DNA from: Mycolicibacter virginiensis
Lineage (GTDB): Bacteria; Actinomycetota; Actinomycetes; Mycobacteriales; Mycobacteriaceae
DNA: 64,000 nt
Assembly (NCBI RefSeq): GCF_022374935.2
Contig: NZ_CP092430.2
Coordinates: 1,984,001-2,048,000 of the forward strand
Direction of reading: 5' to 3'
Positions within the stretch are counted from its first letter, which is position 1, and the number at the start of each line of letters is the position of its first letter. Positions 2,354 to 45,185 of this stretch are shown here, piece after piece. The notes under the pieces were generated by a model. The model was not told the DNA's origin. It did not search any database and saw nothing but the letters and a program-made list of their open reading frames with translations. The translations under genes and the position numbers were made by a program.

Positions 2354-3481
2354 ATGGCTGATCACCCGGGTTCCGGCGGCTCGGCCGGTCCTCGGGCGCG
2401 GGCGCTTCGGGTGCTGATCGCGCCGGACTGTTTCGGCGAGACTCTGACCGCGGTGCAGGCCGCCGCCGCCATCTCGACCGGCTGGCATCGCAGCCGACCC
2501 CACGACCGGCTGGCGATCGCACCGCAGTCCGACGGCGGCCCGGGCTTCGTCGCGGTGCTGGCCAACGCGCTGGGCACGGTGCAGCAGGCCCGGGTCAGCG
2601 GACCGCTGGATGATCCGGTCGACGCCGAATGGGTCTGGGACTCCGTCGCCAAAACGGCCTATCTGGAATGCGCCCAGGCCTGCGGGTTGGGAATGCTCGG
2701 CGAACCGCCGTCACCGCGCACAGCGCTACTGGCCCACAGCATGGGGGTGGGACAACTCGTCGCCGCCGCGCTGGCGGCCGGGGCGCAGCGAATCGTCATC
2801 GGGCTCGGCGGCAGTGCGTGTACCGACGGTGGTCGCGGCATGGTCGAGGAATTGGGTGGCCTGGCCGCCGGCCGCCGGCGGCTCACGGGGGTCGAATTGG
2901 TAGCCGCCTGTGACGTGGAATATCCGCTACTGGGCCCCTGGGGCTCGGCCCGTGTGTTCGGGCCGCAGAAGGGCGCCGACGCCGCCACGGTCGCGGTACT
3001 CGAAAGCAGGCTGGCTGCCTGGGCGAGCGAACTGGACGCCACCGCCGGGTGGGAGGCCAGCGCCGCGTCGGGCGCCGGGGCAGCCGGCGGCATCGGGGCA
3101 GCCGTGCTGGCGCTGGGCGGCACCATCGAATCCGGTTCCGAGATCGTGGCCCGCCACACCGGTCTGGAGGCCGCCCTCGCCGACACCGACGTCCTGGTCA
3201 CCGGCGAAGGCCACTTCGATCAGCAGTCGCTGCACGGCAAAGTGGTCGGTTCGCTGGCGGCGGCGGCGCGGGCGCGGGAGATGCCGCTGCTGGTCCTGGC
3301 CGGACAGATCAGCCTGGACGAACCCGCACTGCGGTCGGCCGGGGTGCTGGCCGCCCGGGCAATCGCCGACTATGCCGGCTCCGTGCGGCTGGCCCTGATC
3401 GACGCCGCCAACCAGCTGATCGGGCTGACCAGCGTCACAGCGGCGCAGATCGGTGGCCGCGCGGCGGGTTCGTCCAGGTGA
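2354..3481 (+). CDS. Glycerate kinase, GckA/GlxK type (Rv2205c-like)
   Basis: Phosphorylates D-glycerate with ATP, feeding glyoxylate/serine-derived carbon into lower glycolysis. The protein is 375 aa with the family signatures GGSACTDGG at about residues 152-160 and a [19 protein letters not shown] segment in the C-terminal half. ATG at 2354 is preferred, although an overlapping GTG at 2351 is also in frame; a TACGCT -10 element suggests a leaderless message. The stop codon (3479-3481) lies inside the first copy of a tandem repeat, so the gene's last codons are contributed by that repeat. Cytosolic; no sign of damage. Confidence 0.88.
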
Positions 3482-3576
3482 TTCGGCGGTCCAGCTTCGG
3501 CTCTCCTGCGTCGAGTCTCGCTAACCGCCAGGTGATTCGGCGGTCCAGCTTCGGCTCTCCTGCGTCGAGTCTCGCT
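3474..3576. repeat. Tandem repeat, 54-bp period, two copies; member of a dispersed family
   Basis: Copies start at 3474 and 3528. Each carries the 30-base core (3493-3522 and 3547-3576; begins AGCTTCGGCTCTCCTGCGTC). Between the cores lies an inverted repeat ACCGCC (3524-3529) / GGCGGT (3539-3544). The same core, with one to three changes, recurs at 34450-34479 and 45129-45158. The first copy supplies the stop codon of the glycerate kinase gene. Resembles short mycobacterial interspersed repeats; no match to a named family is claimed. Confidence 0.85.
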
Positions 3577-3624
3577 GATATAGATCGAGCTCGCCGCGTC
3601 GATAGGGAACACGTTGGCGCAGGG

Positions 3625-3630
3625 TATCGT
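3625..3630 (+). promoter_or_regulatory. Candidate -10 (TATCGT) for the Fe-S carrier gene
   Basis: TATCGT fits TANNNT and would give a leader of about 66 bases before the ATG at 3704. A near-perfect palindrome (GCCTCGA-G-TCGAGGC, 3650-3664) lies in that leader and could be an operator or hairpin. There is no convincing -35 element. Confidence 0.3.
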
Positions 3631-3703
3631 TGTTGTGGTGGGTTCGAACGCCTCGAGTCGAGGCCGGACCCGCCCCCATGATCAACCGCAATAGGGAGAC
3701 GCA

Positions 3704-4060
3704 ATGACTGTCCAGGATCAGTCGACCACCGAGTCTCACGGCGTGGTCTTGACCGATGAGGCCGCGGCCAAGGTAAAGGCGCTGCTGGAACAGGAGGGTC
3801 GTGACGACCTGACCCTGCGGATCTCGGTCCAGCCGGGCGGCTGCGCCGGCCTGCGCTACAACCTGTTCTTCGACGACCGCAGCCTTGACGGTGACGTGGT
3901 CGCGGAGTTCAACGGCGTCACGCTGACCGTCGACCGGATGAGTGCGCCGTACCTGCAGGGTGCCGAGATCGGCTACGCCGACCAGATCGACAAGCAGGGC
4001 TTCACCATCGAGAACCCCAACGCCGGCGGCTCGTGCTCGTGCGGCGACTCGTTCAACTGA
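3704..4060 (+). CDS. erpA: A-type iron-sulfur carrier/insertion protein (HesB/IscA/ErpA family, Rv2204c-like)
   Basis: Accepts and delivers Fe-S clusters to apo-enzymes in the cytosol. The protein is 118 aa, the usual A-type size. The three conserved cysteines are C47 (in GGCAGLRY) and C111/C113 (CSCG near the C-terminus), spaced as in IscA/ErpA. The SD sequence AGGGAGA lies 5 bases before the ATG. The symbol erpA is by family; the exact client is unknown. The gene lies between glycerate kinase and adenosine kinase, as in M. tuberculosis, except that the small opposite-strand membrane gene (Rv2203) normally found downstream is absent. Confidence 0.9.
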   Translation: MTVQDQSTTESHGVVLTDEAAAKVKALLEQEGRDDLTLRISVQPGGCAGLRYNLFFDDRSLDGDVVAEFNGVTLTVDRMSAPYLQGAEIGYADQIDKQGFTIENPNAGGSCSCGDSFN

Positions 4061-4162
4061 GCACCTGATTTCATCTGAACACCGCGGGTTTTGTGCTGCC
4101 CGGCGGCGAGCAGGTGGCACCGGGCCGCTACCGTGGGTACCCACATCCAGGCCCAATGGTGA

Positions 4163-5158
<996 letters not shown>

Positions 5159-5167
5159 TCTGCCGAG

Positions 5168-5217
5168 CAGACGTAAAAGCCCCCTATTCGTGCCGAATCA
5201 GGGGGCTTTTACGTCTG
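5168..5217. terminator. Perfect bidirectional terminator between convergent adoK and asnB
   Basis: An 18-bp perfect stem (CAGACGTAAAAGCCCCCT pairing with its exact complement at 5200-5217) surrounds a 14-base loop in which ATTCG and CGAAT can pair further. The A-run and T-run inside the stem give U-tracts on both strands. It sits between two convergent stop codons, at 5158 and 5228. Intrinsic terminators this good are uncommon in mycobacteria. Confidence 0.9.
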
Positions 5218-5227
5218 TTCGCGGGGG

Positions 5228-7174
5228 TTAGAGCCGCACGGGATAGTCCGGTTCCCTGATGGTCGGAACCACGGTGTGCTCGACGAAGATCGCGTGCCAC
5301 AGCATGAAGATCAGCACGGTCCACAGTCGACGGCTGTGATCGGCGGTGCCCACGCGGTGCTCGTCGAGCATCGTGCGCACCGCTGCGACGTCGATGAGGT
5401 GATCGGCGCCGGTGGCGTCCACCGTGGCGTAGGCCCACTCCAACAGCTCACCGGCGCGCAGCCAGTGCCGTAGTGGCACCGGGAAGCCGAGCTTGGGGCG
5501 GTGCAGTACATGCGCGGGAATGATCGGCTCCAATGCACGGCGCAGCGCGTACTTGGTGGTGGTGCGGGTGATCTTGGCCGACACCGGCAGGCGCGACGCG
5601 ACCGCGAACACCTCGGGGTCCAGGAACGGTACCCGCAGCTCCAGTGAATTGGCCATCGTCATCTTGTCGGCTTTGACCAGGATGTCGCCGCGCAGCCAGG
5701 TGAACAGATCGATGTGCTGCATTCGGGCCACCGGGTCCCAGCCGGCGGACTCGGCGTACACCGGGGCGGTGACGTCGGTGTGGGTCCAGTCGGGGGAGAA
5801 GCCCGGCAGCACGGCACGCAGCTGCTCGTCGGAGAAACTGCGGGCGTTGCCGTAATAGCGTTCCTGCAGCGTTAGTGACCCGCGGTGCAGCAGGCTCTTG
5901 CCGCGCATGCCCTCGGGCAACGGCCGCGACGCCTTGCCGAGGGATCGGCGCACCGGTGCCGGTAGATAATCGAACGGACGCAGCGACAGCGGCTCTCGGT
6001 AGATCGTGTAGCCGCCGAACAACTCGTCGGCGCCTTCGCCGGAGAGCACCACTTTCACGTGCTTGCGGGCTTCGGCGGCGATGAAGTACAGCGGCACCAA
6101 TGCCGGGTCGGCGACAGGGTCGTCGAGGTACCAGACGATCTCGGGCAGGGCGGCGACGAACTCGGCCGGGCTGACCACCTTGACCACGTGCCGGGCACCG
6201 ATCGCCTCGGCGGACGCAGCGGCGACGTCGACCTCGGAGAAGCCCTCGCGCTCGAACCCGGTGGTGAAGGTGATCAGTTTGGGGTTGTGGCGCATCGCCA
6301 GCGCGGCGATCGCGGTGGAGTCGATCCCGCCGGACAGGAACGCGCCAACGGTGACGTCGGCCCGCATGTGCTTGGCGACTGAATCCTCCAGGACCGCGGT
6401 GATCTCGTCGTAGCGGGCCTGCTCGGTGTCGCGGGTGATCGGGGTGGCGTCGAACCGCGGCCGGAAGTAGCGGGTGGTCTCCGGCTCACCGCCCGGCCGA
6501 ATCCGGGCGTAGCAGCCCGATTCCAGCCGGCGTATGCCGCGGTGCAGCGTCTCCGGTTCCGGCACGTACTGCAGCACCGTGTAGTGCTGGACGGCGCGGG
6601 TGTCGATCGCGGTGTCGAACCCCACCACGTCGGCGAGGTCCAGCAGGCATTTCTTCTCGCTGCCCACCACGGTGCCGCCCGGGCCGGACGCCATGAACAG
6701 CGGCTTGATCCCGAACGGGTCGCGGGCGCAGAACAGCTCGCCGGCCACGGTGTCCCACACCGCGAAGGCGAACATGCCGCGCAGCCGCGACAGCACCTCG
6801 GTGCCCCAGTAGTGGTAGCCCGCGACGATCGCCTCGCCGTCGCCGTCGGTGGCGAATATCGCGCCATGTTCGGCGGCCAGCTCTTCGCGCAGTTCCAGGT
6901 AGTTGTAGATCTCGCCGTTGAACACCAGTTCGTAGCGCTCGGGAGCCTCTGGCGGGCCCCACCGCATGGGCTGGTGCGAATGGGCGATGTCGATGAACGA
7001 CAGCCGGTTGAAGCCGAACACCACGCGATCGCCGGCCCAGATCCCGCCTGGCTCGTCCGGGCCCCGGTGGCGCATCAGGTGGGTGGCGCGCGACACCGCG
7101 CCGGCGACTTCGGCCACATCAGGGCCGGGTGTCGTGCCGGCCGGGGCACACACGAAGGCCAGCAGTCCACACAT
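5228..7174 (-). CDS. asnB: Asparagine synthetase, glutamine-hydrolysing
   Basis: Makes asparagine from aspartate using glutamine amide nitrogen and ATP; related mycobacterial enzymes also amidate cell-wall diaminopimelate, so that role is possible. The protein is 648 aa. The class II glutaminase domain starts with MCGLLAF, leaving Cys2 as the N-terminal nucleophile, and contains FNGEIYNY (85-92). The synthetase domain carries the pyrophosphate loop SGGIDS (281-286). The start was chosen at the Met before Cys2; the frame is open for 81 more codons upstream, but those would bury the nucleophile. Transcribed divergently from ctaC. Confidence 0.95.
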   Translation of the reverse strand: MCGLLAFVCAPAGTTPGPDVAEVAGAVSRATHLMRHRGPDEPGGIWAGDRVVFGFNRLSFIDIAHSHQPMRWGPPEAPERYELVFNGEIYNYLELREELAAEHGAIFATDGDGEAIVAGYHYWGTEVLSRLRGMFAFAVWDTVAGELFCARDPFGIKPLFMASGPGGTVVGSEKKCLLDLADVVGFDTAIDTRAVQHYTVLQYVPEPETLHRGIRRLESGCYARIRPGGEPETTRYFRPRFDATPITRDTEQARYDEITAVLEDSVAKHMRADVTVGAFLSGGIDSTAIAALAMRHNPKLITFTTGFEREGFSEVDVAAASAEAIGARHVVKVVSPAEFVAALPEIVWYLDDPVADPALVPLYFIAAEARKHVKVVLSGEGADELFGGYTIYREPLSLRPFDYLPAPVRRSLGKASRPLPEGMRGKSLLHRGSLTLQERYYGNARSFSDEQLRAVLPGFSPDWTHTDVTAPVYAESAGWDPVARMQHIDLFTWLRGDILVKADKMTMANSLELRVPFLDPEVFAVASRLPVSAKITRTTTKYALRRALEPIIPAHVLHRPKLGFPVPLRHWLRAGELLEWAYATVDATGADHLIDVAAVRTMLDEHRVGTADHSRRLWTVLIFMLWHAIFVEHTVVPTIREPDYPVRL

Positions 7175-7319
7175 CGGGTCCCAGTATGCCGCACCGGTAT
7201 CGGCGTTGAACTGCGAAGGCCCATGTAGGCCTGCGAAGAAGCTGTGGAGCCAGATGAGGTGGTCAACACACCGGGACGGCCAACCGGCAGGTACATCAAA
7301 CCTCGGTGATCCGGGTGGT

Positions 7320-7335
7320 CTACGCTGCGTAGTAT
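7320..7335 (+). promoter_or_regulatory. ctaC promoter candidate with a 13-bp palindrome
   Basis: TAGTAT (7330-7335) is a -10-like hexamer 54 bases before the ctaC start. It overlaps the palindrome CTACGC-T-GCGTAG (7320-7332), which could be an operator. The whole asnB/ctaC divergent gap is about 215 bases and shows nothing else I can assign. Confidence 0.35.
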
Positions 7336-7389
7336 TCGACTGCTCCGCCGGGTCAGTCGGCCCGTTCTGTGACTCGAGGAGGCACCAAC

Positions 7390-8448
7390 GTGACACGTCG
7401 CGGGCAGGGCGTTGCACATCGCCGTCTGCTTCGACCGCTGACCGCGGTCAGCGTGCTCGGACTGCTGGCGGTAACGCTCAGCGGTTGCAGCGTCGACTGG
7501 ACCGATGTGGTCGGTTTCGGCTGGCCCAAGGGCATCACGCCAGAGGCTGAGGCCAACTACCAGCTGTGGATCGGCATGGTCATCGCTTCGGTGGTGATCG
7601 GTGGGCTCGTCTGGGGAATGATCTTCTGGTCGATGATCTTCCACCGCAAGAAGGCGACCGACACCGAGCTGCCGCGCCAGTTCGGCTACAACATGCCGCT
7701 GGAGCTCGGACTCACCGTCGTGCCGTTCCTGGCCGTCGCGGTGATCTTCTACTTCACCGTCGTGGTCCAGGAGAAGATGCTGCACCACGAGCCCAACCCC
7801 GAGGTGGTCGTCGACGTCACCGCCTTCCAGTGGAACTGGAAGTTCGGTTACCAGAAGGTCGACTTCCACGACCACACCCTGAGCTACGACGGTGTGGACC
7901 AAGCCCGCAAGGACGCGATGACGTCCAAGCCCGAAGGCGTGGACGCGCACGGTGAGGAACTGCGGGGGCCGGTCCAGGGCCTCAACACCGAGGACCGCAC
8001 CTACCTGAACTTCGACAAGATCGAGACGGTCGGGACCACCGGAGAGATCCCGGTGCTGGTGCTGCCGAGCGGTAAGCGCATCGAGTTCGTGCTCAACTCG
8101 GCCGACGTCATCCACGCGTTCTGGGTGCCCGAGTTCCTGTTCAAGCGTGACGTCATCGCCTGGCCCGAGCGCAACAACCAGGTGAACACCTTCCAGGTTG
8201 CCGAGATCACCAAGGAGGGCGCGTTCGTCGGCCACTGCGCCGAGATGTGCGGCACCTACCACGCGATGATGAACTTCGAGGTCCGGGTGGTCTCGCCTAA
8301 TGACTTCAAGGCCTATCTGGATCAGCGCATCGCCGGAAAGACCAACGCCGAGGCGCTGGAGGCGATCAAGCAGGAACCGTTGGCGACCACCACGTTCCCG
8401 TTCGACAGCCGCCGTGGCCTGCTAGCCCCGCAAGCCAGCAACAAGTAG
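7390..8448 (+). CDS. ctaC: Cytochrome c oxidase (aa3) subunit II
   Basis: Takes electrons from the cytochrome bc1 complex through the CuA centre of the terminal oxidase. The protein is 352 aa with a lipoprotein-type signal peptide (lipobox LSGC, C33), membrane helices at about 60-81 and 105-128, and a periplasmic cupredoxin domain with CuA ligands H242, C283, C287, H291 and M294. GTG at 7390 is chosen because AGGAGG lies 7 bases upstream; an in-frame GTG at 7369 lacks a ribosome site. ctaF follows after 10 bases. Confidence 0.96.
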
Positions 8449-8458
8449 GGACAACCGC

Positions 8459-8878
8459 ATGCGCATCGAATCCAGGCTGTTCGAGTTCGTCGCCACCTTC
8501 TTCCTGGTGGTCGGCGTGATCTACGCGGTGCTGACCGGCAAGTTCGCCACCGGCGGCGTGGAATGGGCCGGCACTACCGCGCTGTTCCTGACCGGAATGA
8601 TGGCCATGATCGTGGCCACCTTCTTCCGGTTCGTGGCACGCCGGCTGGACACCCGTCCCGAGGACTACGAGGCCGCCGAGGTCAGTGACGGCGCCGGCGA
8701 GTTGGGCTTCTTCAGCCCGCACAGCTGGTGGCCGATCCTGGTCGCGCTGTCCGGCTCGGTGGCTGCCGTGGGGATCGCTCTGTGGCTGCCCTGGCTGATC
8801 GCTGCCGGCGTGGTGTTCGTGTTGTCGAGCGTGGCCGGACTGGTCTTCGAGTACTACATCGGCGCCGAGAAACACTGA
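8459..8878 (+). CDS. ctaF: Cytochrome c oxidase subunit IV
   Basis: Small membrane subunit of the actinobacterial aa3 oxidase in the bc1-aa3 supercomplex. The protein is 139 aa, the same length as the M. tuberculosis protein as I recall it. It has a pair of helices near residues 8-25 and 33-55 and a second pair in the last 55 residues, separated by a polar loop ([15 protein letters not shown]). It immediately follows ctaC and is almost certainly co-transcribed. Confidence 0.93.
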
Positions 8879-9008
8879 CCGGATCTCCGCCGCGGCCGCC
8901 GTGTCGACCCGCTTGGGTAGGGTTGCCGATGCACAATGACCAACGGTGATTGATGTCGACCGCAACCGGTCAGGTCGTGGCGCGGCGGTTTGAAGAGGAT
9001 AGGCGGGA

Positions 9009-10555: not shown

Positions 10556-10582
10556 GCGGGCGCCGTTGTCGCGAGTGCCTGG

Positions 10583-11215: not shown

Positions 11216-11218
11216 AAC

Positions 11219-11252
11219 GGGCAGCCCGCGCAGGAGATTGCGCAGGCTGCCC
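11219..11252 (-). terminator. Terminator downstream of qcrB
   Basis: Reading the minus strand, GGGCAGCC pairs with GGCTGCCC and inner GCGCA pairs with TGCGC, and the stem is followed by GTTTTGG. It lies between the qcrB stop (11274) and the PNPOx-like start (11215) and should end the ctaE-qcrCAB message. Because the next gene starts 4 bases beyond it, read-through or a separate promoter would be needed for that gene. Confidence 0.75.
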
Positions 11253-11273
11253 GATTGTTCGGACCCAGTGGGC

Positions 11274-14065: not shown

Positions 14066-14937
14066 GAGCGTGCCCCGATCCACATTGCCGCGGCGATGGC
14101 TGCGACCATGCCGATAATCCAAATCACCATTCCCTCGGGCGCCGGGCCGAACCCGCCGAGCCCGTAGCCGCCCGGATCACGTTCCTCGGTAACGGATTTC
14201 ACGTAGGCGATGATGTCCTTCTTCTCCTCCATGGAGATCTGCCGGTCGGAGAAGCGCGGCATGTTCTGCGGGCCCGACAGCATCGCGGTCAGGATCTGCT
14301 GCTCGCTGGCCGGCGCCAGGTCGGGCGCGTACTTACCCGAGGACAGGGCGCCGCCCCGGCCGGTGAAGTTGTGGCAGGACGCGCAGTTGAGGCGGAAGAG
14401 GTCGCCGCCGCGGCCAAGGTCGTCACCGCGCAGCGAAGCCTGCGCGATGCTGCCATCGGCGTTGCGCACCACGGTGGGTCCGCCGCCGTTGGCCTGGACG
14501 TAGGCGCCCAACGCGTCGATCTGCTTGTCGTCGAAGAACGGGTATGTGCGGGGGGCCTGGGCCTCACCGCGGACCGCGGGCATCCGGCCGCTGGAGACCT
14601 GGAAGTAGACGGCGGCTTCACCGACGCCGATCAGGCTCGGACCACGGCCCACCTCACCCTGCAGGTTGGCGCCGTGGCAGCTCACACACGAGGTGTCGAA
14701 GAGCTGCTTCCCGGTGCGCAGCAGGGCCGAGGCCGACTCGTCGGCCACCGCAACCTGCGGGGTCGGGGTCAGCAGCGCGGCCATTCCACCGGCCAGGGCC
14801 AGGGCGACCAGCAGCAGCAGTCCGCCCGAGGCACGACGGCGCAGGCGCCGGCGGGCAACGGTGTCGTTGTTGCCAGGTCGGGCCCACTTCTTCAGTGTCT
14901 TCAACCGGACACTCCTGTTCATCGGGCGGTTGCTCAT
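14062..14937 (-). CDS. qcrC: Cytochrome bc1 complex di-heme cytochrome c subunit
   Basis: Covalent di-heme cytochrome c that passes electrons directly to CtaC, since mycobacteria lack a soluble cytochrome c. The protein is 291 aa with an N-terminal membrane anchor (about residues 30-50), two CxxCH heme sites (CVSCH, then CASCH) with downstream Met ligands, and a C-terminal membrane helix. The ATG at 14937 overlaps the ctaE stop (ATGA); a second in-frame ATG lies 5 codons later. The frame remains open upstream but runs into ctaE. Confidence 0.95.
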
Positions 14938-21081: not shown

Positions 21082-21083
21082 GG

Positions 21084-21217
21084 GCCCGCATCGTCAGCCC
21101 GCTGCGCCTGATTGCGGGCTTCCTCAGCGGGCCGCGGGCGGCCCGCATCGTCAGCCCGCTGTGCCTGATTGCGGGCTTCCTCAGCGGGCCGCGGGCGGCC
21201 CGCATCGTCAGCCCGCT
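21084..21217. repeat. 57-bp tandem repeat, 2.4 copies, with interleaved inverted repeats
   Basis: Copies begin at 21084, 21141 and 21198 (the last truncated at about 20 bases). In copy 1, GCCCGCA (21084-21090) pairs with TGCGGGC (21113-21119), and GCCCGCTG (21097-21104) pairs with CAGCGGGC (21125-21132). The arms interleave, so the RNA could form either hairpin or a pseudoknot. The array fills the gap between the metallopeptidase stop and the pimB start. Confidence 0.9.
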
Positions 21218-33363: not shown

Positions 33364-33369
33364 CTGGTC

Positions 33370-33375: not shown

Positions 33376-33403
33376 TGTGTGCAGGTGGCCGGTCCGGCGG
33401 CTT

Positions 33404-33409: not shown

Positions 33410-33415
33410 TGTGTC

Positions 33416-33820: not shown

Positions 33821-33824
33821 CGTT

Positions 33825-35417
33825 TCAAGCGGCGTCGAGGGCAGGCGCTTGTTGTGCCCGCGACAGCCGGTACCAGGCGTACACGGCGCATCCCGTCGCG
33901 CCGATCACATGCAGCCAGGTGTACATGCCGTGCGAGCCGTCGGGTTTGAAGATCACCATGATCCAGGTCGACGCCGCGGCGATCGCGGCGATCGCGGTCG
34001 GTGAACGGACCACGGTGGCCGCCACCGCCAGTGGCCAGGTGTAGTACCAGGGCAAGGCGGCCGGTACGAACAGCACCACCACCAGCATCGCCCAGGCGAT
34101 CCCGGCGACCGCAGCGCGATCGTCGCGCCGCGCCCGCCACCACAGCACCGGCAGCAGCAGTCCGATCACCGCGACCCCGCTGATCCGGGTGATGTGCAGC
34201 ACGGCATAGAAGTTGACCGGGGCGAACAACCCGCCGACGGCGTGGATCAGGTTGGCGGCCGCGGTCGGCACGGTGAGCCAGTTGATGATCTTGACGTTGC
34301 CGGCCAGCAGTGCGGTCAACCAGCCCAGGCTCACTCCGGCCAGGGCCGAGAGCACGGCGAACACCGCGACGATGATCGCCGTGGACACCGCTGCCGCGAT
34401 GGCGAATGCGATCACCGTCGGATAGCCGCGGCGTTCATTTCGCGGTTCCAGCTTCGGCTCTCCTTCGTCGAGCCTCGCTAAACCGCGGCGTTCACCGCGC
34501 GGTTCCCGCAGGCGGCGCATCCAGATCCACACCAGGAACGGCAATGCGATTGCGGCGGTGGCCTTTACCGCCGCTGCCAGCGCTACCAGCGTTATCCCCG
34601 CCAGGTGGCGGCGCTCCAGGGTCAGCGCGATCCCGGCGATCACCAGGCCGACCATCAGCATCTCGTTGTGCACCCCGCCCATCAGGTGGATGATCACCAG
34701 CGGGTTGAGCACGGCCAAATACAGCGCCGCGGGCGCGCTGCCACCGACACGGGCCGCGACCCGGGGTGCGGCCCAGATCAGCAGTGCCAGACCGGGCAGC
34801 ATGCACAAGCGCAGCACCATCGTGCCGGCCACCACGTTGTTGCCCACCAGCATCGTGACGAGCTTGGCGACCAGAATGAACGCCGGGCCGTACGGTGCCG
34901 TCGTCGCTGCCCAGATCGGGCTGACATCCTCGAGCAGGGGATTGGGGTTGTCCACCGGCCCGACCACGTACGGATCGAATCCATCCCGCAGCAGGGCGCC
35001 CTGGGCCAGGTAGGAGTAGGTGTCGCGGCTGAACACCGGGACCGACAGCAGCAGCGGCGCCAGCCAGAAACCGGTGGTGGTGATCAGCGTGTAGGTGCTC
35101 ACGGTGCCCTCGATCACCCGCCGGCCCAAGCCGAGCCAGGCCACCAGCATCACCGCGACCCCAGCCCACAGCAGCACCGACGACAGCACCAGGCCGTGAC
35201 CGAAGCGCAGCCATGACAGGTGCAGGGAATCGAGCACCGGGTCCTGGATGCGGGTGCTGCCGGCGCCCAAGCCGCCCAGGGTGATCAGCAGCGCGCCCAG
35301 GCAGCCGAGCCATGCCGCTCCCGCTTGCTCGCCGGCGGCGAACTGCCGCAGTCGGGACAGGCCGCTGACGGCGTCGCTGGACGCGCGGGGGACCGGTGGG
35401 GTGGTGGGGTTCGACAT
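33825..35417 (-). CDS. mptA: Alpha-(1->6) mannosyltransferase of lipomannan (GT-C)
   Basis: Polyprenyl-phosphomannose-dependent enzyme extending the alpha-1,6 mannan backbone of lipomannan. The protein is 530 aa with about 13 hydrophobic helices and the GT-C acidic motif in the first outer loop (SRDTYSYLAQGALLRDGFDPY). Residues about 305-331 (EPRGERRG, LARLDEGEPKL, EPRNERRG) are encoded by a copy of the dispersed 57-bp repeat, inserted in frame in a basic loop between helices (MRRL...YPTVIAF). The protein is about 14 residues longer than I recall for M. tuberculosis MptA. ATG start. Confidence 0.9.
   Translation of the reverse strand: MSNPTTPPVPRASSDAVSGLSRLRQFAAGEQAGAAWLGCLGALLITLGGLGAGSTRIQDPVLDSLHLSWLRFGHGLVLSSVLLWAGVAVMLVAWLGLGRRVIEGTVSTYTLITTTGFWLAPLLLSVPVFSRDTYSYLAQGALLRDGFDPYVVGPVDNPNPLLEDVSPIWAATTAPYGPAFILVAKLVTMLVGNNVVAGTMVLRLCMLPGLALLIWAAPRVAARVGGSAPAALYLAVLNPLVIIHLMGGVHNEMLMVGLVIAGIALTLERRHLAGITLVALAAAVKATAAIALPFLVWIWMRRLREPRGERRGLARLDEGEPKLEPRNERRGYPTVIAFAIAAAVSTAIIVAVFAVLSALAGVSLGWLTALLAGNVKIINWLTVPTAAANLIHAVGGLFAPVNFYAVLHITRISGVAVIGLLLPVLWWRARRDDRAAVAGIAWAMLVVVLFVPAALPWYYTWPLAVAATVVRSPTAIAAIAAASTWIMVIFKPDGSHGMYTWLHVIGATGCAVYAWYRLSRAQQAPALDAA
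34426..34506. repeat. Dispersed repeat copy inside the mptA coding sequence
   Basis: Two related 24-base blocks (34426-34449 and 34483-34506, offset 57) flank the 30-base family core (34450-34479). The right block has a perfect stem AACCGCG (34481-34487) / CGCGGTT (34498-34504); the left has CCGCG/CGCGG. The blocks differ at a few bases, so the event is not recent. 57 bp is 19 codons, which keeps the mptA frame. Confidence 0.85.
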
Positions 35418-35432
35418 CGGCGCTCCGGGCGA

Positions 35433-37599
<2,167 letters not shown>

Positions 37600-37602
37600 T
37601 CC

Positions 37603-38277: not shown

Positions 38278-38403
38278 CCGTCGAAACCGGCGCTGAGCGG
38301 GCGCTGGAACGGATCTCCGAGCGGGCTGTAGCGAACGCCGAACATGCACGACGTCATCGTGCCAGACCAGTCGGCTGCTCCGGTGACGACGCGGCGCTTG
38401 GCT

Positions 38404-39021
38404 TTACAACGGCAGGGGCCGGCCCAGGATGGCGAATGGCCGGGGATCGCCGGCGAAGTGGTGACCGCGGATGACGTCGGTGAATCCCAGCCGCCGGTAC
38501 AACCGCCAGGCGCGGTTGCCTTCGCCATTGGTCTCCGGTGTGGACAGCAGCACGTTGGCTTCGGGCCGCCCGGCCAGCAGCCGGCGGGCCAGGGCCTCAC
38601 CCAGGCCGCTGCCCTGCGCGCGCGGTGCGACGTGCAATTCGGTCAGCTCGAAGTAACTGGCCATCAGGCGCGCGATGTCGGGGTGGGGCAGCCCGCGGCG
38701 CTGTAGGCCCAGCACCACCTGCTGCTGCCACCACTGGTCGGGGGCTCCGCAGTAGCCGTAGGCCACGCCCAGCAGCTCGGCGCCGTTCAATCCGGACGGC
38801 GCGGCGTCCGGCTGGCGAATCTCGCCGACGCCGCCGGCTTCGTCGTCGGCGAAGGCGGCCACCGCTCGCCAACCGATTCGGCGGGTGTGATCGAGCCACA
38901 TCGCAGCACGTTGGCTTTCGGTGCCCGGGGGATAGCCCATCGCGGTGACGTAGACGCGCAGTGCCGCACCGAGGTGATCCGCCATTTCGCGCGGCGACAT
39001 GTCGAGGAGGAAGGTCACCAA
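38404..39021 (-). CDS. GNAT-family N-acetyltransferase (Rv2170-like)
   Basis: 205 aa. The acetyl-CoA binding motif A is RAQGSGLGEA (134-143) after the strand ELTELHVAP; motif B is RAWRLYRRLGF, both standard GNAT. The M. tuberculosis homologue has been reported to acetylate isocitrate dehydrogenase; whether this one does is unknown. Start at 39021 (GTG-type); an in-frame ATG lies at codon 8. Transcribed divergently from the DUF3040 gene across a 238-base gap. Confidence 0.85.
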   Translation of the reverse strand: MVTFLLDMSPREMADHLGAALRVYVTAMGYPPGTESQRAAMWLDHTRRIGWRAVAAFADDEAGGVGEIRQPDAAPSGLNGAELLGVAYGYCGAPDQWWQQQVVLGLQRRGLPHPDIARLMASYFELTELHVAPRAQGSGLGEALARRLLAGRPEANVLLSTPETNGEGNRAWRLYRRLGFTDVIRGHHFAGDPRPFAILGRPLPL

Positions 39022-39111
39022 CGTGCAGGTTCCTTTCCCGCAGAAGTGGGAGCGTGCCCGATGCCCGTGGTCCCATTATCCGGATTGGGTCGACGGCGTC
39101 GGCCGTTGTTG

Positions 39112-39139
39112 TTCGACATCGCCGGACCGCCGCTACAAT
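39112..39139 (+). promoter_or_regulatory. Candidate promoter TTCGAC-16-TACAAT for the DUF3040 gene
   Basis: TACAAT (39134-39139) is close to the consensus -10, with TTCGAC 16 bases upstream. A second -10-like TATTAT lies at 39179-39184. Either would give a leader of 70-115 bases. Nothing else is visible in the 39022-39259 gap. Confidence 0.4.
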
Positions 39140-39259
39140 CGGCTGGTGAAGCCTGTGGTACGGCGCAGGCCTACCTCGTATTATCAGTGTTAGTTGCCCG
39201 CACCAGTCCGTATTGCGCCGTGGGCAATGATATGAGCGGCCGTCGGCAAGGAGGGACGA

Positions 39260-39661
39260 ATGCCACTCTCCGATCATGAGCAGCGCATGCTCGACGAGAT
39301 CGAGAGCGCGCTCTACGCCGAGGACCCCAAGTTCGCTTCCAGCGTTCGCGGCGGTGCTCTGCGTACCCCCACCACCCGCCGGCGGGTGCAGGGCATGACA
39401 CTGTTCGTGGTCGGTCTGGTGATGCTGGTATCCGGTATCCCGATCTATGCGACCACCGTCAATTCGGCATTCCTGATTCTGAGCGTGCTGGGATTCGTGG
39501 TCATGTTCGGTGGCGTGGTGTTCGCCATCACCGGCAACCACGCGACCGCCAGCCGCGACGGTGCGGCCAAGCCGGGCGGGAGTTCGCAGCGGCGGGTGAA
39601 GGGTGGCGGCACCTTCGCCAGCCGGATGGAAGACCGTTTCCGCCGCCGATTCGAGCCTTAG
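39260..39661 (+). CDS. DUF3040 membrane protein (Rv2169c-like)
   Basis: 133 aa, unknown function. The N-terminal helix MPLSDHEQRMLDEIESALYAEDPKF is the DUF3040 signature. Two membrane helices lie at about 44-63 and 69-90, then a basic tail. A strong SD (AAGGAGG) precedes the ATG. It is followed by an intrinsic terminator and then the mraZ regulatory region, so it is separately transcribed from the dcw cluster although it neighbours it throughout mycobacteria. Confidence 0.88.
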   Translation: MPLSDHEQRMLDEIESALYAEDPKFASSVRGGALRTPTTRRRVQGMTLFVVGLVMLVSGIPIYATTVNSAFLILSVLGFVVMFGGVVFAITGNHATASRDGAAKPGGSSQRRVKGGGTFASRMEDRFRRRFEP

Positions 39662-39687
39662 GCCGATCCAGCGGCACGTGTGATGTG

Positions 39688-39716
39688 AAAGGGCAGCCGA
39701 TCGGCTGCCCTTTTTT
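39688..39716 (+). terminator. Intrinsic terminator after the DUF3040 gene
   Basis: AAAGGGCAGCC pairs perfectly with GGCTGCCCTTT around a GATC-type loop, followed by a run of T (TTTTTT). It insulates the mraZ promoter region from upstream transcription. Confidence 0.9.
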
Positions 39717-39780
39717 CTTGGCGTTTCGGCGCGCGACAGCTCCGGTGCCGCCTCCCGGGGGCAACGCTTCAGTGCGCGCA

Positions 39781-39807
39781 CCCCACCTCGCCCCACTTTG
39801 CCTCCAC
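39781..39807 (-). promoter_or_regulatory. Second, inverted cluster of MraZ-like GTGGRG boxes
   Basis: On the minus strand GTGGAG (39802-39807), GTGGGG (39791-39796) and GTGGGG (39781-39786) occur with 11- and 10-base periodicity, like the canonical array at 39922-39947 but in the opposite direction and about 140 bases upstream. Function is inference. Confidence 0.4.
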
Positions 39808-39921
39808 CTGCGCTGACCTGGATGTTCGGTGCCCAGTTGCGCCCATTTTCGTATGCCTGGACGGCCCGATGGCCGATCTGGTGGGGCGTAGGGGTGGAAT
39901 CGACCAAAGAAATGGTGCGTA

Positions 39922-39947
39922 GTGGGGGATTGTGGGGTATCGTGGGC
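39922..39947 (+). promoter_or_regulatory. MraZ operator: three GTGGGN boxes with 10-bp period
   Basis: GTGGGG (39922), GTGGGG (39932) and GTGGGC (39942) are exactly 10 bp apart, ending 30 bases before the mraZ ATG. MraZ is known to bind direct TGGGN repeats with 10-bp spacing upstream of its own gene and regulate the dcw operon. The 315-base gap 39662-39976 otherwise holds the terminator and the inverted box cluster. Confidence 0.8.
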
Positions 39948-39976
39948 TGCGAAGTCGACATGGCGGGAGGTGGCCG

Positions 39977-40408
39977 ATGTTCCTCGGCACCTATACGCCC
40001 AAGCTCGACGACAAGGGGCGGCTGACACTGCCCGCGAAGTTTCGCGATGCGCTGGCAGGAGGGTTGATGGTCACCAAGAGTCAGGACCACAGCCTGGCCG
40101 TGTATCCCCGCGCGGAGTTCGAGCAGTTGGCCCGCCGGGCGGCCAAGGCTTCGCGCAGCAACCCGGACGCGCGAGCATTCCTGCGCAACCTGGCCGCCGC
40201 CACAGATGAACAGCACCCCGACGCCCAGGGCCGGATCACCTTGTCGCCCGACCACCGTCGCTACGCCAACCTGTCCAAGGAATGCGTGGTCATCGGGTCG
40301 GTCGATTACCTGGAGATCTGGGACGCGCAGGCCTGGAGTGATTACCAGCAGACACACGAAGAGAACTTCTCCGCGGCCAGCGATGAAGCACTCAGCGACA
40401 TCATCTGA
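39977..40408 (+). CDS. mraZ: Transcriptional regulator MraZ
   Basis: First gene of the dcw cluster; ring-forming DNA-binding protein that controls the cluster through GTGGG boxes. The protein is 143 aa with two SpoVT/AbrB-like swapped-hairpin repeats: [23 protein letters not shown] (1-23) and [18 protein letters not shown] (about 77-94). ATG 39977 is chosen for the invariant [12 protein letters not shown]-terminus; upstream in-frame codons fall within the operator boxes. The SD is GGGAGG. The rsmH reading frame overlaps its 3' end if the longer rsmH start is used. Confidence 0.95.
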
Positions 40409-40589
40409 GGCGCGCGCCCGTGCCTCGTGGCCTCTGTCCGAACCGACCCTGACGTACTTCCCCAACGTCAGGTTCGCGCTGTCGGGCAGGGACCTCGAGG
40501 CAAGGGCCGCCTGCAGCCGGGTCGCACGCCGTGGGGCCCGGAGACCAAGCGATCGTGCAATTCATTGGCCGCAACAGGGAGGTATTGCT

Positions 40590-41597
40590 GTGGCCGAACA
40601 GGGCGAATTCGGACATGTGCCGGTCCTGCTGGACCGTTGCGTGGAGCTGCTGGCTCCGGCGCTGACCAGGCAGTCGCCCGACGGCCAGGGCGCGACCCTG
40701 GTGGACGCCACCCTCGGGGCCGGCGGGCACACCGAGCGGTTCTTGAGCGAGTTCCCCGGCCTGCGGGTCATCGGTTTGGACCGCGATACCACCGCACTCG
40801 ACATCGCCGGGGCCCGGTTGGCCCGCTTCGCCGATCGGCTCCAGACGGTCTGTACCCGATACGACGGGATTCCCGCGGCGCTTGCCGAATCCGGCTTGGC
40901 CGCAACCGGGTCGGTGGCTGCGGTGTTGTTCGACCTCGGGGTGTCCTCGATGCAGCTCGACCGGGTGGAGCGGGGATTCTCCTACGCGCAGGACGCGCCG
41001 CTGGACATGCGAATGGACCCGCAGGCCGAACTCACCGCCGCAGACATCGTGAACACCTACGACGCGGCCGCGCTGACCGACATTCTGCGCCGCTTCGGCG
41101 AGGAGCGTTTCGCATCGCGGATCGCCTCGTACATCGTGCGCCGCCGGGCCCAGACCCCATTCACCTCGACCGGGGAACTGACGGCGCTGCTCTACGAGGC
41201 GATTCCGGCGCCGGCGCGACGCACCGGGGGACACCCGGCCAAGCGGACATTTCAGGCGCTGCGCATCGCGGTCAACGGCGAATTGGACTCACTGCGAGAC
41301 GCATTGCCGGCGGCGCTGGATGCGTTGGCGGTGGGTGGACGCGTGGCGGTGATGTCCTACCAGTCGCTGGAGGACCGCATCGTCAAGCAGCAGTTCGCCG
41401 CGGCCACCGCGTCTCGCACCCCGGTCGGGCTGCCGGTCGAATTGCCCGGGGACGAACCGAAGTTCACGACGTTGACGCGGGGCGCCGAAAAGGCCGAGGC
41501 GGATGAGGTCGAGCGCAACCCACGAGCGGGCTCAGTCCGGCTACGTGCGGTTGAGCGGGTCCAGGCCGGCCCGATCGTGGCATCGAGGGGGAAGTGA
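40590..41597 (+). CDS. rsmH: 16S rRNA (cytosine(1402)-N(4))-methyltransferase
   Basis: Methylates C1402 in the ribosomal P-site using S-adenosylmethionine. The protein is 335 aa from GTG 40590, which has AGGGAGG 8 bases upstream and starts just before the conserved [11 protein letters not shown]. The SAM motif is [15 protein letters not shown], followed by [11 protein letters not shown] and [15 protein letters not shown]. The same frame is open to an ATG at 40383 (404 aa, overlapping mraZ by 26 bases), and the extra N-terminal stretch ([18 protein letters not shown]) resembles the annotated M. tuberculosis N-terminus. Which start is used is open. The stop is joined to ftsL as TGATG. Confidence 0.92.
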
Positions 41598-42709
41598 TGG
41601 CGACCAAGCGCAAGCCCGCGGCACGGCAGGGCGGCCGTCGCCGTAACCCCGAGAACGCAACCCGCGCGGGCGCGCGGCGGGTCACCGAGCAAACGCAGGC
41701 CCGGGGCCCACGGCGGCAGCGTGGAATCACGCCCGCAGCGGGTCTCCAGTCGCGGCCGCGCACCGGCCCGCAGAAGGCGGCGTCGCTTCGCCCGGACCCC
41801 AGGCCGGTGCCGCCGAAGAACACCAAGCAGGCCAAGGCGCGGGCGAAGGCCCGTAAGGCCAAGGCGCCCAAGGTTGTACGCGTCCCGCTGCGCGAACGTC
41901 TGATTGCTCGGCTGGCCTCGGTCGACCTGCGGCCGCGCACGCTGGCGGCCAAGGTTCCGTTCGTCGTGCTGATCATCGGCGCGCTCGGCATCGGGCTGGG
42001 AATCACCCTGTGGTTGTCGACGGACGCCGCCGAGCGGTCCTACCAGTTGGGCAACATCCGGGAGCGCAACCGGGTGCTCATGCAGCAGAAAGAAGCGCTC
42101 GAGCGTGACGTGCTCACCGCCGAATCCGCACCCGCGCTTGCCGAGGCGGCCCGCGAACTGGGCATGATCCCCAGCCGCGACACCGCGCATCTGGTGCAGG
42201 ACCCGATCGGCAACTGGGTGGTCGTCGGGACCCCGAAGCCCGCCGAGGGTGCGCCGCCGCCGCCGCTGAACACCAAGCTGCCCGACGATGTGGCACCACC
42301 TGCCGAGGTGCCGGTTCGGGTGCCGCCGGCCGGGCCGAAGCTCGACAGCCGTCACCTGCCCGCCGCAGTCCCGTCGGCTCCGGGCGTGCCCGGTGCGCCG
42401 CTGACCATTCCGGGCCTGCCGGGCGTTCCCGGATTGCCGCTGGCCGGTCCGTTGCCTGGGCCTGGCGCGCAAGACATCCCGCCGCTGGCGACCCCCCCGG
42501 CCATCCCGTCTGATAGCTTGCCGCCCGTCGCTTTGCCGCCCGGGTCGGTAGTGCCGCCCGAGACGGTGCTGCCGGTGGGCGGAACCCCTCCGCCGGCGTC
42601 GGTCCTGCCTCCGGCCGCGGTGCTGCCGCCCGAGGCCGTCCTGCCTCCGCAATCCCCGCTGCCGCCGGAAGTCCTGGCGACGCCGGTGGCCGGGGGAGTC
42701 GCGCGATGA
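41597..42709 (+). CDS. ftsL: FtsL-like septal membrane protein with proline-rich tail (Rv2164c-like)
   Basis: Divisome scaffold protein between rsmH and the septal transpeptidase. The protein is 370 aa: a very basic cytoplasmic region (1-118), one membrane helix (about 121-141), a short coiled coil (about 145-190; ERNRVLMQQKEALERDV) as in FtsL/FtsB, then a ~160-residue Pro/Leu/Val-rich periplasmic tail with repeated LPP units. ATG 41597 shares its A with the rsmH stop; an overlapping GTG at 41594 is also possible. [12 protein letters not shown]. The symbol is by position and topology. Confidence 0.85.
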   Translation: MATKRKPAARQGGRRRNPENATRAGARRVTEQTQARGPRRQRGITPAAGLQSRPRTGPQKAASLRPDPRPVPPKNTKQAKARAKARKAKAPKVVRVPLRERLIARLASVDLRPRTLAAKVPFVVLIIGALGIGLGITLWLSTDAAERSYQLGNIRERNRVLMQQKEALERDVLTAESAPALAEAARELGMIPSRDTAHLVQDPIGNWVVVGTPKPAEGAPPPPLNTKLPDDVAPPAEVPVRVPPAGPKLDSRHLPAAVPSAPGVPGAPLTIPGLPGVPGLPLAGPLPGPGAQDIPPLATPPAIPSDSLPPVALPPGSVVPPETVLPVGGTPPPASVLPPAAVLPPEAVLPPQSPLPPEVLATPVAGGVAR

Positions 42710-44712
42710 GACGGCCCGCGCGGGGAACCGGCCCGGCACGTCGTGCCGACGGCTCGACCGCAGCTGCCTCGCGAAAGACCCGCCGATCCGCCACCTCGCC
42801 GGCGAAGCCGGCCAAAGCCGCCAAGCCCGCTAAGGCGCCGAAAGCGACCACCACAACCGGACATTCGGCGCGCGAGCGTCGTACCCGCCAAGCCACCGAG
42901 GTGGGCCTGCGTAGCGCGTCGTTCGTCTTCCGGCACCGCACCGGCAACGCGGTCATCTTCCTGGTGCTGGCCTTGTCGGCTGCTCAGTTGTTCTACCTGC
43001 AGGTGCCGCGGGCCTCCGGGCTACGGGCTGAAGCCGCCGGACAACTCAAGGTCACCGACGTCCAGCAGGCGATGCGCGGCGACATCATCGACCGCACCGG
43101 GGACAAGCTCGCCTTCACCATCGAGGCCCGGGCGCTGTCCTTCCAGCCGGTCAAGATCGGCAAGCAGCTTGCCGACGCCAAAAAGAAGGATCCGTCGGCA
43201 CCCGATCCGCAGCTGCGGCTGCAGCAGATCGCCAAGGAGATCTCCACACGCCTCGGCAACAAGCCGGACTCCGCAGCCCTGTTGAAGAAGCTGCGCAGCA
43301 ACGAGACGTTCGTCTATCTCGCCCGTGCCGTTGACCCCGCGGTGGCCGAGGTGATCACCGAGAAATGCCCTGAGGTCGGTAGCGAGCGGCAGGATCTGCG
43401 CCAGTATCCGGGCGGGTCGCTGGCGGCCAACATCATCGGCGGCATCGACTGGGACGGCCACGGTCTGTTGGGTCTGGAGGACTCGATGGACGCAGTGCTG
43501 GCCGGAACGGACGGGTCGGTCACCTACGACCGCGGCTCGGACGGCGTGGTCATCCCGGGCAGCTACCGCAACCGGCACAAGGCCGTCAACGGGTCGACGA
43601 TCCAGCTCACCCTCGACGACGACATTCAGTTCTACGTCCAGCAGCAGGTGCAGCAGGCCAAGAACGTTACTGGCGCACACGATGTCACGGCAGTGGTGCT
43701 GGACGCCAAGAGCGGTGAGGTGCTGGCGATGGCCGGCGACAACACGTTCGACCCCTCCCAGGACGTCGGGCGCCAGGAGGACCGCCAGCTCGGCAATCTG
43801 GCGGTGTCCTCGCCGTTCGAGCCGGGCTCGGTGAACAAGATCATCACCGCCGCCTCGGTCATCGAATACGGCCTCGGGCATCCCGACGACGTCCTGCAGG
43901 TACCCGGATCGATCAACGTCGCCGACGTCACCGTCAGCGACGCCTGGGAGCACGGCGTCGCGCCGTACACCATCACCGGGATCTTCGGAAAATCCTCCAA
44001 CGTCGGCACCCTGATGCTGGCGCAACGAGTGGGCCCCGAGCGCTGGTTCGACATGGTGGAGAAGTTCGGGCTCGGCCAGCGCACCGGTGTCGCGCTACCC
44101 GGTGAGAGCGCCGGGCTGGTGCCTCCGGTGGACCAATGGTCCGGCAGCTCCTTCGCCAACCTGCCCATCGGCCAGGGTCTTTCGATGACGCTGCTGCAGA
44201 TGGCCGGGATGTACCAGGCCATCGCCAACGACGGGCTGCGGATTCCGCCGCGGATCATCAAGGCGACCATTTCCCCCGACGGCAGCCGCGCTGAGGAGCC
44301 TCGGCCCGAAGGAGTCCGGGTGGTCTCGGAGCAGACCGCGGCGACCGTGCGCAACATGCTGCGCTCGGTGGTGCAGCGTGATCCAACCGGTGTTCAGCAG
44401 GGCACCGGATGGCAGGCCGCCGTCGACGGCTACCAGATCGCCGGCAAGACCGGTACCGCACAGCAGATCAACCCGGCCTGCGGTTGCTACTACGACGACG
44501 TCTACTGGATCACCTTCGCGGGAATAGCGCCGGCGGACAATCCGCGCTACGTCATCGGCCTGATGATGAACAACCCCCACCGCGCCGCGGACGGGTCGCC
44601 GGGCACCTCGGCGGCACCGCTGTTCCACAACATCGCCGGGTGGTTGTTGCAGCGTCACAATGTGCCGCTGTCGCCGGACCCGGGACCGCCACTGGTCCTG
44701 CAGGCGATGTAG
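42706..44712 (+). CDS. pbpB: Septal peptidoglycan transpeptidase (PBP3/FtsI class)
   Basis: Class B penicillin-binding protein cross-linking septal peptidoglycan with FtsW. The protein is 668 aa. A basic N-terminus (1-80) precedes one membrane helix (about 82-100), then a PBP dimer domain, then a transpeptidase domain with SVNK (S375 nucleophile, K378), SSN (430-432) and KTGT (581-584). The ATG overlaps the ftsL stop (ATGA). In M. tuberculosis four or more genes separate pbpB from murE; here only a small secreted protein gene does. Confidence 0.95.
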   Translation: MRRPARGTGPARRADGSTAAASRKTRRSATSPAKPAKAAKPAKAPKATTTTGHSARERRTRQATEVGLRSASFVFRHRTGNAVIFLVLALSAAQLFYLQVPRASGLRAEAAGQLKVTDVQQAMRGDIIDRTGDKLAFTIEARALSFQPVKIGKQLADAKKKDPSAPDPQLRLQQIAKEISTRLGNKPDSAALLKKLRSNETFVYLARAVDPAVAEVITEKCPEVGSERQDLRQYPGGSLAANIIGGIDWDGHGLLGLEDSMDAVLAGTDGSVTYDRGSDGVVIPGSYRNRHKAVNGSTIQLTLDDDIQFYVQQQVQQAKNVTGAHDVTAVVLDAKSGEVLAMAGDNTFDPSQDVGRQEDRQLGNLAVSSPFEPGSVNKIITAASVIEYGLGHPDDVLQVPGSINVADVTVSDAWEHGVAPYTITGIFGKSSNVGTLMLAQRVGPERWFDMVEKFGLGQRTGVALPGESAGLVPPVDQWSGSSFANLPIGQGLSMTLLQMAGMYQAIANDGLRIPPRIIKATISPDGSRAEEPRPEGVRVVSEQTAATVRNMLRSVVQRDPTGVQQGTGWQAAVDGYQIAGKTGTAQQINPACGCYYDDVYWITFAGIAPADNPRYVIGLMMNNPHRAADGSPGTSAAPLFHNIAGWLLQRHNVPLSPDPGPPLVLQAM

Positions 44713-44854
44713 TCCCACGACCCGCTGCAGCAGATCCGTCGACTCGCGTCCGTAAAAAACGACGTGATTCCGCAGTCTTGGTGATGGTCGGGTGGTTATC
44801 GTTCGGGCAACGCGGTGACAAAGGGGGTTCCGCGCCGAAGAGAAGGGGTCGATC

Positions 44855-45103
44855 ATGGCCCGAAAAACCATTGCGATCAGTTACGCAATTCCGGGGGTTC
44901 TCGCCACGGCGGCGGGCATCGTCGCGGCGGGGCTGCTCGGCACACCCATCGCAAGTGACCACCAGGCCAGCGGCTGTTTCATGACCAAGGATGGAAACTG
45001 CGAGGACGTGCCGGACCCGACCCAGTACGGATGTGCGCCCGGGGACTTCCAATGCATGTTCGACAAGAAACTCAAGCAGCCGCCGCCGCCTTCTGACGGC
45101 TGA
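44855..45103 (+). CDS. Small exported four-cysteine protein, unknown
   Basis: 82 aa, not recognised. The N-terminal hydrophobic segment (about residues 8-32, after MARK) is a signal peptide or anchor. The mature part has four cysteines (C41, C49, C60, C67), probably two disulfides, and ends in a Pro run (KQPPPPSDG). A GA-rich SD (AGAAGGGG) precedes the ATG. It stands between pbpB and murE, where M. tuberculosis has unrelated genes (Rv2159c-Rv2162c). The stop codon is the first TGA of a dispersed repeat copy. Confidence 0.7.
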   Translation: MARKTIAISYAIPGVLATAAGIVAAGLLGTPIASDHQASGCFMTKDGNCEDVPDPTQYGCAPGDFQCMFDKKLKQPPPPSDG

Positions 45104-45185
45104 ACCGCCGGGCCTATGCGGCGGTCCCAGTTTCGGCTCTCCTTCGTCGAGCCTCGCTGAACCGCCGGGCCTATGCGGCGGTCCC
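45100..45185. repeat. Dispersed repeat copy between the small secreted protein gene and murE
   Basis: Two identical ~28-base hairpin blocks (45100-45127 and 45157-45184, offset 57) flank the 30-base family core (45129-45158). Each block has a perfect stem ACCGCCG / CGGCGGT (45104-45110 with 45119-45125; 45161-45167 with 45176-45182). The core itself can pair GGCTC with GAGCC. Confidence 0.88.

Follow-up and report, generated by a model that had tools for sequence, protein, structure and literature searches.

A MIRU-like 57-bp interspersed repeat of Mycolicibacter virginiensis that probably inserts as whole units at junction-like targets

According to part of PMC3914561, MIRU are repeats of 46–101 bp with 41 loci in H37Rv, 12 of them variable. 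As set out in a section of PMC4213456, units of 77 and 53 bp lie between senX3 and regX3, and MIRU as described there are restricted to M. leprae and the tuberculosis complex. Here, a repeat with a unit of about 57 bp is described from Mycolicibacter virginiensis, starting from a window of 64,000 bp (the whole stretch of DNA analysed, bases 1,984,001–2,048,000 of a single-contig genome of 4,980,142 bases, 4.98 Mb). It is probably a MIRU-like non-coding interspersed repeat that inserts whole units at junction-like targets, and it resembles MIRU in its layout, i.e. short tandem units over tens of loci with a variable copy number. MIRU are said to enter DTGA stop/start sites, whereas the targets of the Mycolicibacter repeat, at the ten sites analysed below, have a GCCGGGTT-like stretch in common and not DTGA.

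Other short repeats share part of this layout. In the passages of PMC3532100 that treat it, STAR of S. aureus is intergenic and consists of a 14-bp motif and a spacer of 40+ bp, with a site of precise presence/absence; its function, origin and propagation mechanism are stated there as unknown. A conserved motif, spacers that are alike within a locus but not between loci and a number that expands and contracts are common to both repeats, but sequence and layout differ. RPE are palindromic, non-autonomous and in frame inside genes according to parts of PMC2229807 and PMC10969869, and they measure 105–146 bp, compared to 57 bp for the present unit; a table of the former marks their target-site duplication with '?'. 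The likeness lies in the in-frame insertion inside conserved genes, seen here in an mptA-like gene and, by a heuristic, at 8 of 54 sampled loci. To our knowledge, RPE are not tandem. Bacterial miniature inverted-repeat transposable elements (MITEs) such as Correia/NEMIS, ERIC and RUP have, in the section of PMC2229807 concerned, mostly target-site duplications and ends with TA; a short core enclosed by terminal inverted repeats is found in these and in the 57-bp repeat, whereas the flanks of the latter look like reciprocal recombinants. In the open-licence literature, no such Mycolicibacter family was named in the titles and abstract openings among the matches listed. A preliminary description of the stretch had known of no named family with this layout, which is fair for the sequence within the literature searched, while the kind (MIRU-like short interspersed repeats) is known.

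The unit and its loci in the window

The 57-bp unit consists of the tail GGGTTCATG, the arm CGGCGGTCCC, a 30-base core and the arm GAACCGCC. Conservation drops at the tail on the left and past GAACCGCCG on the right, which delimits the unit. The features in the window are the following:

3474..3492, + strand: locus 1, tail and left arm CCAGGTGATTCGGCGGTCC of the first unit, overlapping the TGA stop of the open reading frame 2351-3481
3493..3522, + strand: locus 1, core copy 1
3523..3546, + strand: locus 1, junction block AACCGCCAGGTGATTCGGCGGTCC between both cores, period 54
3547..3576, + strand: locus 1, core copy 2, without a right arm after it
33825..35417, - strand: host gene of locus 2, 530 amino acids; the unit is an in-frame insertion, and orthologues have 0–3 units
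34425..34449, + strand: locus 2, left junction copy GCCGCGGCGTTCATTTCGCGGTTCC
34450..34479, + strand: locus 2, core
34480..34506, + strand: locus 2, right junction copy AAACCGCGGCGTTCACCGCGCGGTTCC
45102..45128, + strand: locus 3, left copy of the junction block GAACCGCCGGGCCTATGCGGCGGTCCC
45129..45158, + strand: locus 3, core
45159..45185, + strand: locus 3, right copy of the junction block, identical to the left copy

All four core positions given in the preliminary description (3493–3522, 3547–3576, 34450–34479 and 45129–45158) were confirmed, the last with one mismatch within its first 15 bases. The core 15-mer has five matches in the window at ≤3 mismatches, namely these cores at 0–1 mismatch and a fifth site (58882) at 3; shuffles gave a mean of 1.41 and reached five in 2 of 100 cases. 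Direct repeats are spaced by 54, 57 and 57 at the three loci, in agreement with the offset of 57 described before for the second and third. The letters of the hairpin blocks are present as well (AACCGCC..GGCGGT at 3523–3546, AACCGCG..CGCGGTT at 34480–34506 and AACCGCCG..CGGCGGT at 45102–45128 and 45159–45185), but the left block of locus 2 (34425–34449) pairs less well. The product of 33825..35417 is presumably an MptA-like mannosyltransferase; the relatives of this protein point to Mycolicibacter (the M. terrae complex), its five best named matches (M. icosiumassiliensis, two M. heraklionensis records, Mycobacterium sp. UM_WGJ and M. arupensis) being 87–95% identical.

The repeat is a dispersed family, as proposed earlier, and is not limited to the three places. 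The core AGCTTCGGCTCTCCTKCGTCGAGYCTCGCT has 139 copies in the source genome at ≤3 mismatches (94 on the + strand, 45 on the - strand), against 0 for a reversed-pattern control. A looser core pattern yields 121 copies at ≤1 mismatch, and leaving two positions free yields 156 at ≤3. In stretches sampled around part of the 139 copies, 96 cores form 54 loci, of which 29 have one core and 25 have 2–5, and some 'single' loci retain decayed additional units. Neighbouring cores are spaced by 57 in 26 of 42 cases and by 56 in seven. By a GC-frame heuristic, the eight in-frame intragenic loci have one core each, and the remaining sampled loci lie at gene edges or allow no gene call. The blocks are alike inside one array and different between loci, a pattern for which CRISPR was rejected as a candidate; cas genes were not searched.

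Filled and empty sites and their junctions

Comparison with relatives reduced 83 clusters in 181 loci to 18 distinct sites with orthologous flanks. Orthologous sites carry 0 to 3 units, and ten of the 18 comparable sites have exact empties (shorter by 57n), so that filled sites exceed empty ones by whole 57-bp units. At sites C, L003 and mptA, flank-to-flank lengths of 83, 140, 197 and 254 correspond to 0–3 units of 57; other lengths also occur, through indels. Orthologous copies mostly have diagnostic core bases in common. Differences in unit number occur between close relatives: of six stretch pairs aligned between genomes G022 and G063, five are 96.7–99.5% identical and the sixth, which holds site C, is 94.5% identical with 163 gap positions; at site C, G022 (L220) has 0 units and G063 (L225, L243) has one. 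At site B, a repeat copy in L220 is missing most of the core, and a closely related genome has this site empty.

In the mptA-like gene, relatives have 0–3 units at the same position and in frame. The unit is tolerated inside genes because 57 bp equal 19 codons and four of the six reading frames of the tandem consensus are open. On the tree, the mptA-site unit is present in G065, G066, G067 and the clade of the source genome and absent in their sisters, which may point either to an old insertion that was precisely lost several times or to several independent gains at the same position. At the same position, L071 has kept a decayed repeat remnant, and L068 and L077 are empty except for 12 extra bases, scar-like, as from inexact loss.

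At the ten sites, the empty target is similar in sequence to the junction of the unit itself (GAACCGCCGGGTT). Scored against the junction consensus GAACCGCCGGGTTCATG with the most distant exact empty taken for each site, on average 9.00 of 17 positions agree (10, 7, 9, 12, 13, 10, 8, 9, 5 and 7 per site), or 9.17 when every exact empty is averaged. The 52 other registers have a mean of 4.61 (sd 0.56) and a maximum of 5.60. Substituting other empties at site A gives a mean of 8.70. Leaving out A, S1 and S4, where the empties might reflect secondary loss, lowers the identity to 7.86, compared to 4.64 ± 0.64 (maximum 6.00) for the other registers. The match falls in columns 0–12, i.e. the left arm and loop of the block, with a peak at CGG in columns 7–9 (0.77, 0.72 and 0.82), and the right arm (columns 17–26) is at background at the ten empty sites (3.37 versus 3.17 ± 0.51).

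The make-up of the flanking copies was scored at positions at which the consensus has another letter than the nearest empty. In the left copy, columns 0–4 follow the target (target 18, element 2, neither 3), columns 5–8 (target 6, element 7) and 9–12 (target 5, element 10, neither 2) are mixed, and columns 13–16 (target 2, element 22, neither 3) and 17–22 (target 0, element 32, neither 4) follow the element. The right copy is the reverse, with element letters in columns 0–4 (target 0, element 22, neither 1), a mixture in columns 5–8 (target 4, element 9) and 9–12 (target 9, element 4, neither 4), and target letters in columns 13–16 (target 21, element 2, neither 4) and 17–22 (target 27, element 5, neither 4). 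The flanking copies at these ten sites therefore read as reciprocal recombinants, with the switch mostly inside ~8 bp (GCCGGGTT), and the hairpin block looks like a junction formed by recombination between target and element rather than a duplicated hairpin. Of the two options first put forward, tandem duplication of a unit or a mobile core that duplicates a hairpin target, it stands that units are mobile and tandem; duplication of a pre-existing hairpin target was rejected, because the target corresponds to the left arm and loop only and the flanks look recombinant. Tyrosine-recombinase core sites of the loxP/dif type have inverted arms around ~8 bp. The repeat is comparable in its inverted arms, but differs in that its target resembles one arm and the centre only. 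Its exchange falls mostly in columns 5–12 (~8 bp), with site B as an exception, and may correspond to the 6–8 bp overlap of such sites.

A classical MITE that is mobilised by the transposase of an insertion sequence (IS) and leaves a long target-site duplication would account for the inverted-repeat arms that flank the core and for flanking copies with locus-specific variants in common. Left and right copies do have such variants in common at the 54 source-genome loci. In columns 3–16 of the 29 single-core loci, 227 of 406 left-right comparisons match versus 195.5 ± 5.7 after shuffling, a count inflated by the few single-core loci that contain a second full block. Sites B and S1 also resemble duplications of ~10 bp or more. 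However, at most informative positions outside columns 5–12, the left copy runs from target to element and the right copy from element to target, and instead of a target-site duplication of fixed length the flanks are mostly reciprocal, with some mixed sites. Moreover, half-elements at the examined loci lead to no longer insert or parent element, a genome-wide scan not having been made. A MITE origin is therefore quite improbable.

Folding, distribution and mechanism

Arm, core and arm fold into a three-part stem, an imperfect hairpin in which the arms CGGCGGT/ACCGCCG are inverted repeats around the core. The DNA fold of arm-core-arm has z scores of -2.89 and -2.05 for the two strands of locus 3, -4.06 for L003 and -3.43 for L049, and the RNA fold has -3.39 and -3.18; positions 3528–3576 of locus 1, without the right arm, give +0.47 as DNA. 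The inner core pair 8–24 is C-C in 48 of 105 first cores. Over 187 distinct stem contexts, which are not independent events, 93.6% of the six-pair stem cells are paired versus 90.1% (sd 0.27) in shuffled ones. Compensatory variants are CGCGGT/ACCGCG (14), GGTGGT/ACCACC (5), AGCGGT/ACCGCT (2), GGCAGT/ACTGCC (2) and GCCGAT/ATCGGC (1). One-sided changes such as GGCGAT/ACCGCC (12) and GGCGGT/ACCACC (9) are frequent too. The earlier view that the stem changes between loci while pairing is kept applies to some loci, and strict stem covariation holds only partly, with five compensatory variants against these frequent one-sided changes.

Folding stems and compensatory variants would also fit a conserved regulatory hairpin, such as a terminator or mRNA-stability element, held in place by selection. 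The core diverges less than the flanks (0.049 versus 0.119 in 56 of 80 pairs at 6 sites), in a crude comparison with ungapped flanks from which 24 pairs with a flank difference of at least 0.4 were dropped. Part of PMC2734929 connects a MIRU-VNTR that lies upstream of M. tuberculosis fpg1 with expression. On the other hand, presence and unit number of the present repeat differ between relatives, and some copies, by the heuristic above, lie in frame inside genes. We consider selection for a regulatory hairpin an unlikely explanation of the family; a regulatory role and mobility can coexist.

The carriers found comprise all 17 named Mycolicibacter genomes searched and further genomes of the same GTDB genus. 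Among 18 relatives' genomes reached via named loci, a count that leaves out L083, 17 carry the core in 15 to 105 copies (≤1 mismatch) and the M. fragae genome has 0. The core is present in 3 of 60 genomes sampled from the GTDB genus, namely the source, G022 (69 copies) and G016 (10 copies), while 57 have none at the thresholds used. In an order sample, these numbers are 3 of 150, source included, and 147; all three belong to the GTDB genus of the source, and judging by coordinates, the other two are apparently among the relatives' genomes already counted. Carrier genomes thus have 10–121 copies at ≤1 mismatch. There was no exact-pattern match in IMG/VR viral contigs and no blastn match to locus 3 in plasmids and phage records. 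No clear strand bias relative to replication was seen by eye at the 54 loci, with the contig start assumed to be near the origin.

Taken together, the target scores, the reciprocal junctions and the whole-unit differences argue for insertion of whole units at junction-like targets. Each integration event would add a single unit, through an exchange that is site-specific or guided by short homology; target and unit could recombine in the manner of Campbell or by template switching. The unit might be supplied by a very small circle, by a single-stranded copy or by an array elsewhere in the genome that serves as template. Once inserted, units would multiply into arrays, or be lost precisely, through slippage between the flanking copies, and recognition may involve the arm-core-arm segment folded as a hairpin.

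Several points weigh against this reading. Eight of the 18 sites were set aside because of indels, decay or orthologues that were themselves occupied (L072:7633, L084:19885, window 45129, L209:785, L209:10389 with L250:1513, L211:1211, the L189/L192/L194 site and L190:1515). Only locus 2 of the three window loci gave a filled/empty comparison, because locus 1 has no orthologue to compare and locus 3 no clean empty. The weakest site is L003, where targets score only 5–7 of 17. In mptA outside Mycolicibacter, with 56 of 61 mycobacterial loci anchored, the fixed register has a mean of 7.80 of 17 (range 4–11) and all other registers 4.62, but a single other register within this conserved stretch reaches a mean of 8.00, and pre-existing similarity there is therefore weak evidence by itself. 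At site B, target letters reach column 14 on the left and start at column 5 on the right, as expected of a target-site duplication; a partial tendency of this kind is seen at S1, C and mptA. A double-stranded 57-bp circle is physically awkward, and no recombinase was identified, Y1_Tnp being the only candidate sought.

The search for Y1_Tnp (PF01797) bears on the idea that a Y1 (IS200/IS605-like) transposase mobilises the repeat as a palindrome of the REP/RAYT type, which would likewise be a single hairpin without need for coding capacity. No match was found in 11 of 12 genomes searched, the source genome included, and the copies are often tandem direct repeats, which leaves this explanation largely refuted and with hardly any probability. 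The sole Y1 (IS200/IS605-like) match among the 12 genomes is in L207 (G065).

A rival with a substantial, though smaller than even, chance of being correct is replication template switching without a dedicated enzyme, whereby a fork at a junction-like target copies one distant unit and then returns to the target through that short stretch of similarity. It predicts the same reciprocal junctions and whole-unit inserts, and switch points do differ between sites. Tandem growth and loss, moreover, are typical of slippage. Less easily reconciled with annealing alone is the target similarity, which is scattered (~9 of 17) and often lacks a long contiguous run, and the switch is mostly restricted to ~8 bp. 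The distribution among genomes described above also suggests a lineage-specific activity.

Related families and meaning of the insertion rule

A tandem-repeat search of the examined loci returned 60 arrays with a period of 48–62, 55 of this family and five others. In L071 (one unit) and in L076 and L077 (two units), a 56-bp repeat is inserted at GCCGGTGATCACC, a GTGATCA site, and this insertion is absent in 17 other orthologues listed, the window included. This family, whose copy in L076 spans 14575–14700, appears closer to MIRU. A second interspersed family has three units at L208:4397 and one in L217, and comparison with L235 places its insertion at CCCAGC|TGTGCGAT; part of the insertion is present in L233, and other orthologues listed differ. 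It has 51 copies in the source genome at ≤3 mismatches (reversed control 0), with arm variants such as CAGTGG/CCACTG and CGGTGA/TCACCG. By eye and at one site each, both of these 55–56-bp families seem to follow the same target rule, which is no more than suggestive.

The window itself contains further repeats. At 57667–57701 (- strand) there is a second-family copy GTCGCGAGCGCGGCGGAGCCGGGCGAAGCGGGCCA, neighbouring genomic copies of which are ~53–56 bp apart, and at 53553–53709 a 56-bp tandem array of 2.8 copies appears second-family-like by eye (arms CACTGG/CCAGTG). A 57-bp tandem array of 2.4 copies at 21083–21217 has a third sequence, with 151 bases between its flanks in the window versus 58 in the relative L190. 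Diverged 57-bp units of the same layout were seen on the - strand of L250 (~2156–2330 of the reverse complement), and these may be a protein-coding repeat. Apart from these repeats, an Rfam scan of the window gave the mraW RNA element only (RF01746, 40412–40515, 79 bits).

Tentatively, several 55–57-bp Mycolicibacter families and MIRU could be one class of gene-less repeats, each with a ~17-bp junction and a ~40-bp hairpin. These would move by an exact-unit, reciprocal and site-specific exchange over ~8 bp with a junction-like target through a putative recombination activity, and would supply their own targets and so form arrays. We hold this broader idea to be possible but rather doubtful.

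The novelty appears to lie in the integration rule as measured here, the kind of repeat being already known. The rule is quantitative (a junction-like target, an exchange mostly of ~8 bp and whole units), and it addresses the wider question of how gene-less repeats such as MIRU, STAR and ERIC spread. Either an enzyme, by site-specific recombination, or replication, by template switching, may drive the integration. With tens of copies per genome and ~17 related named genomes with filled and empty sites, the question of how such repeats spread becomes testable. The insertion rule also suggests why mycobacterial tandem-repeat loci arise where they do.

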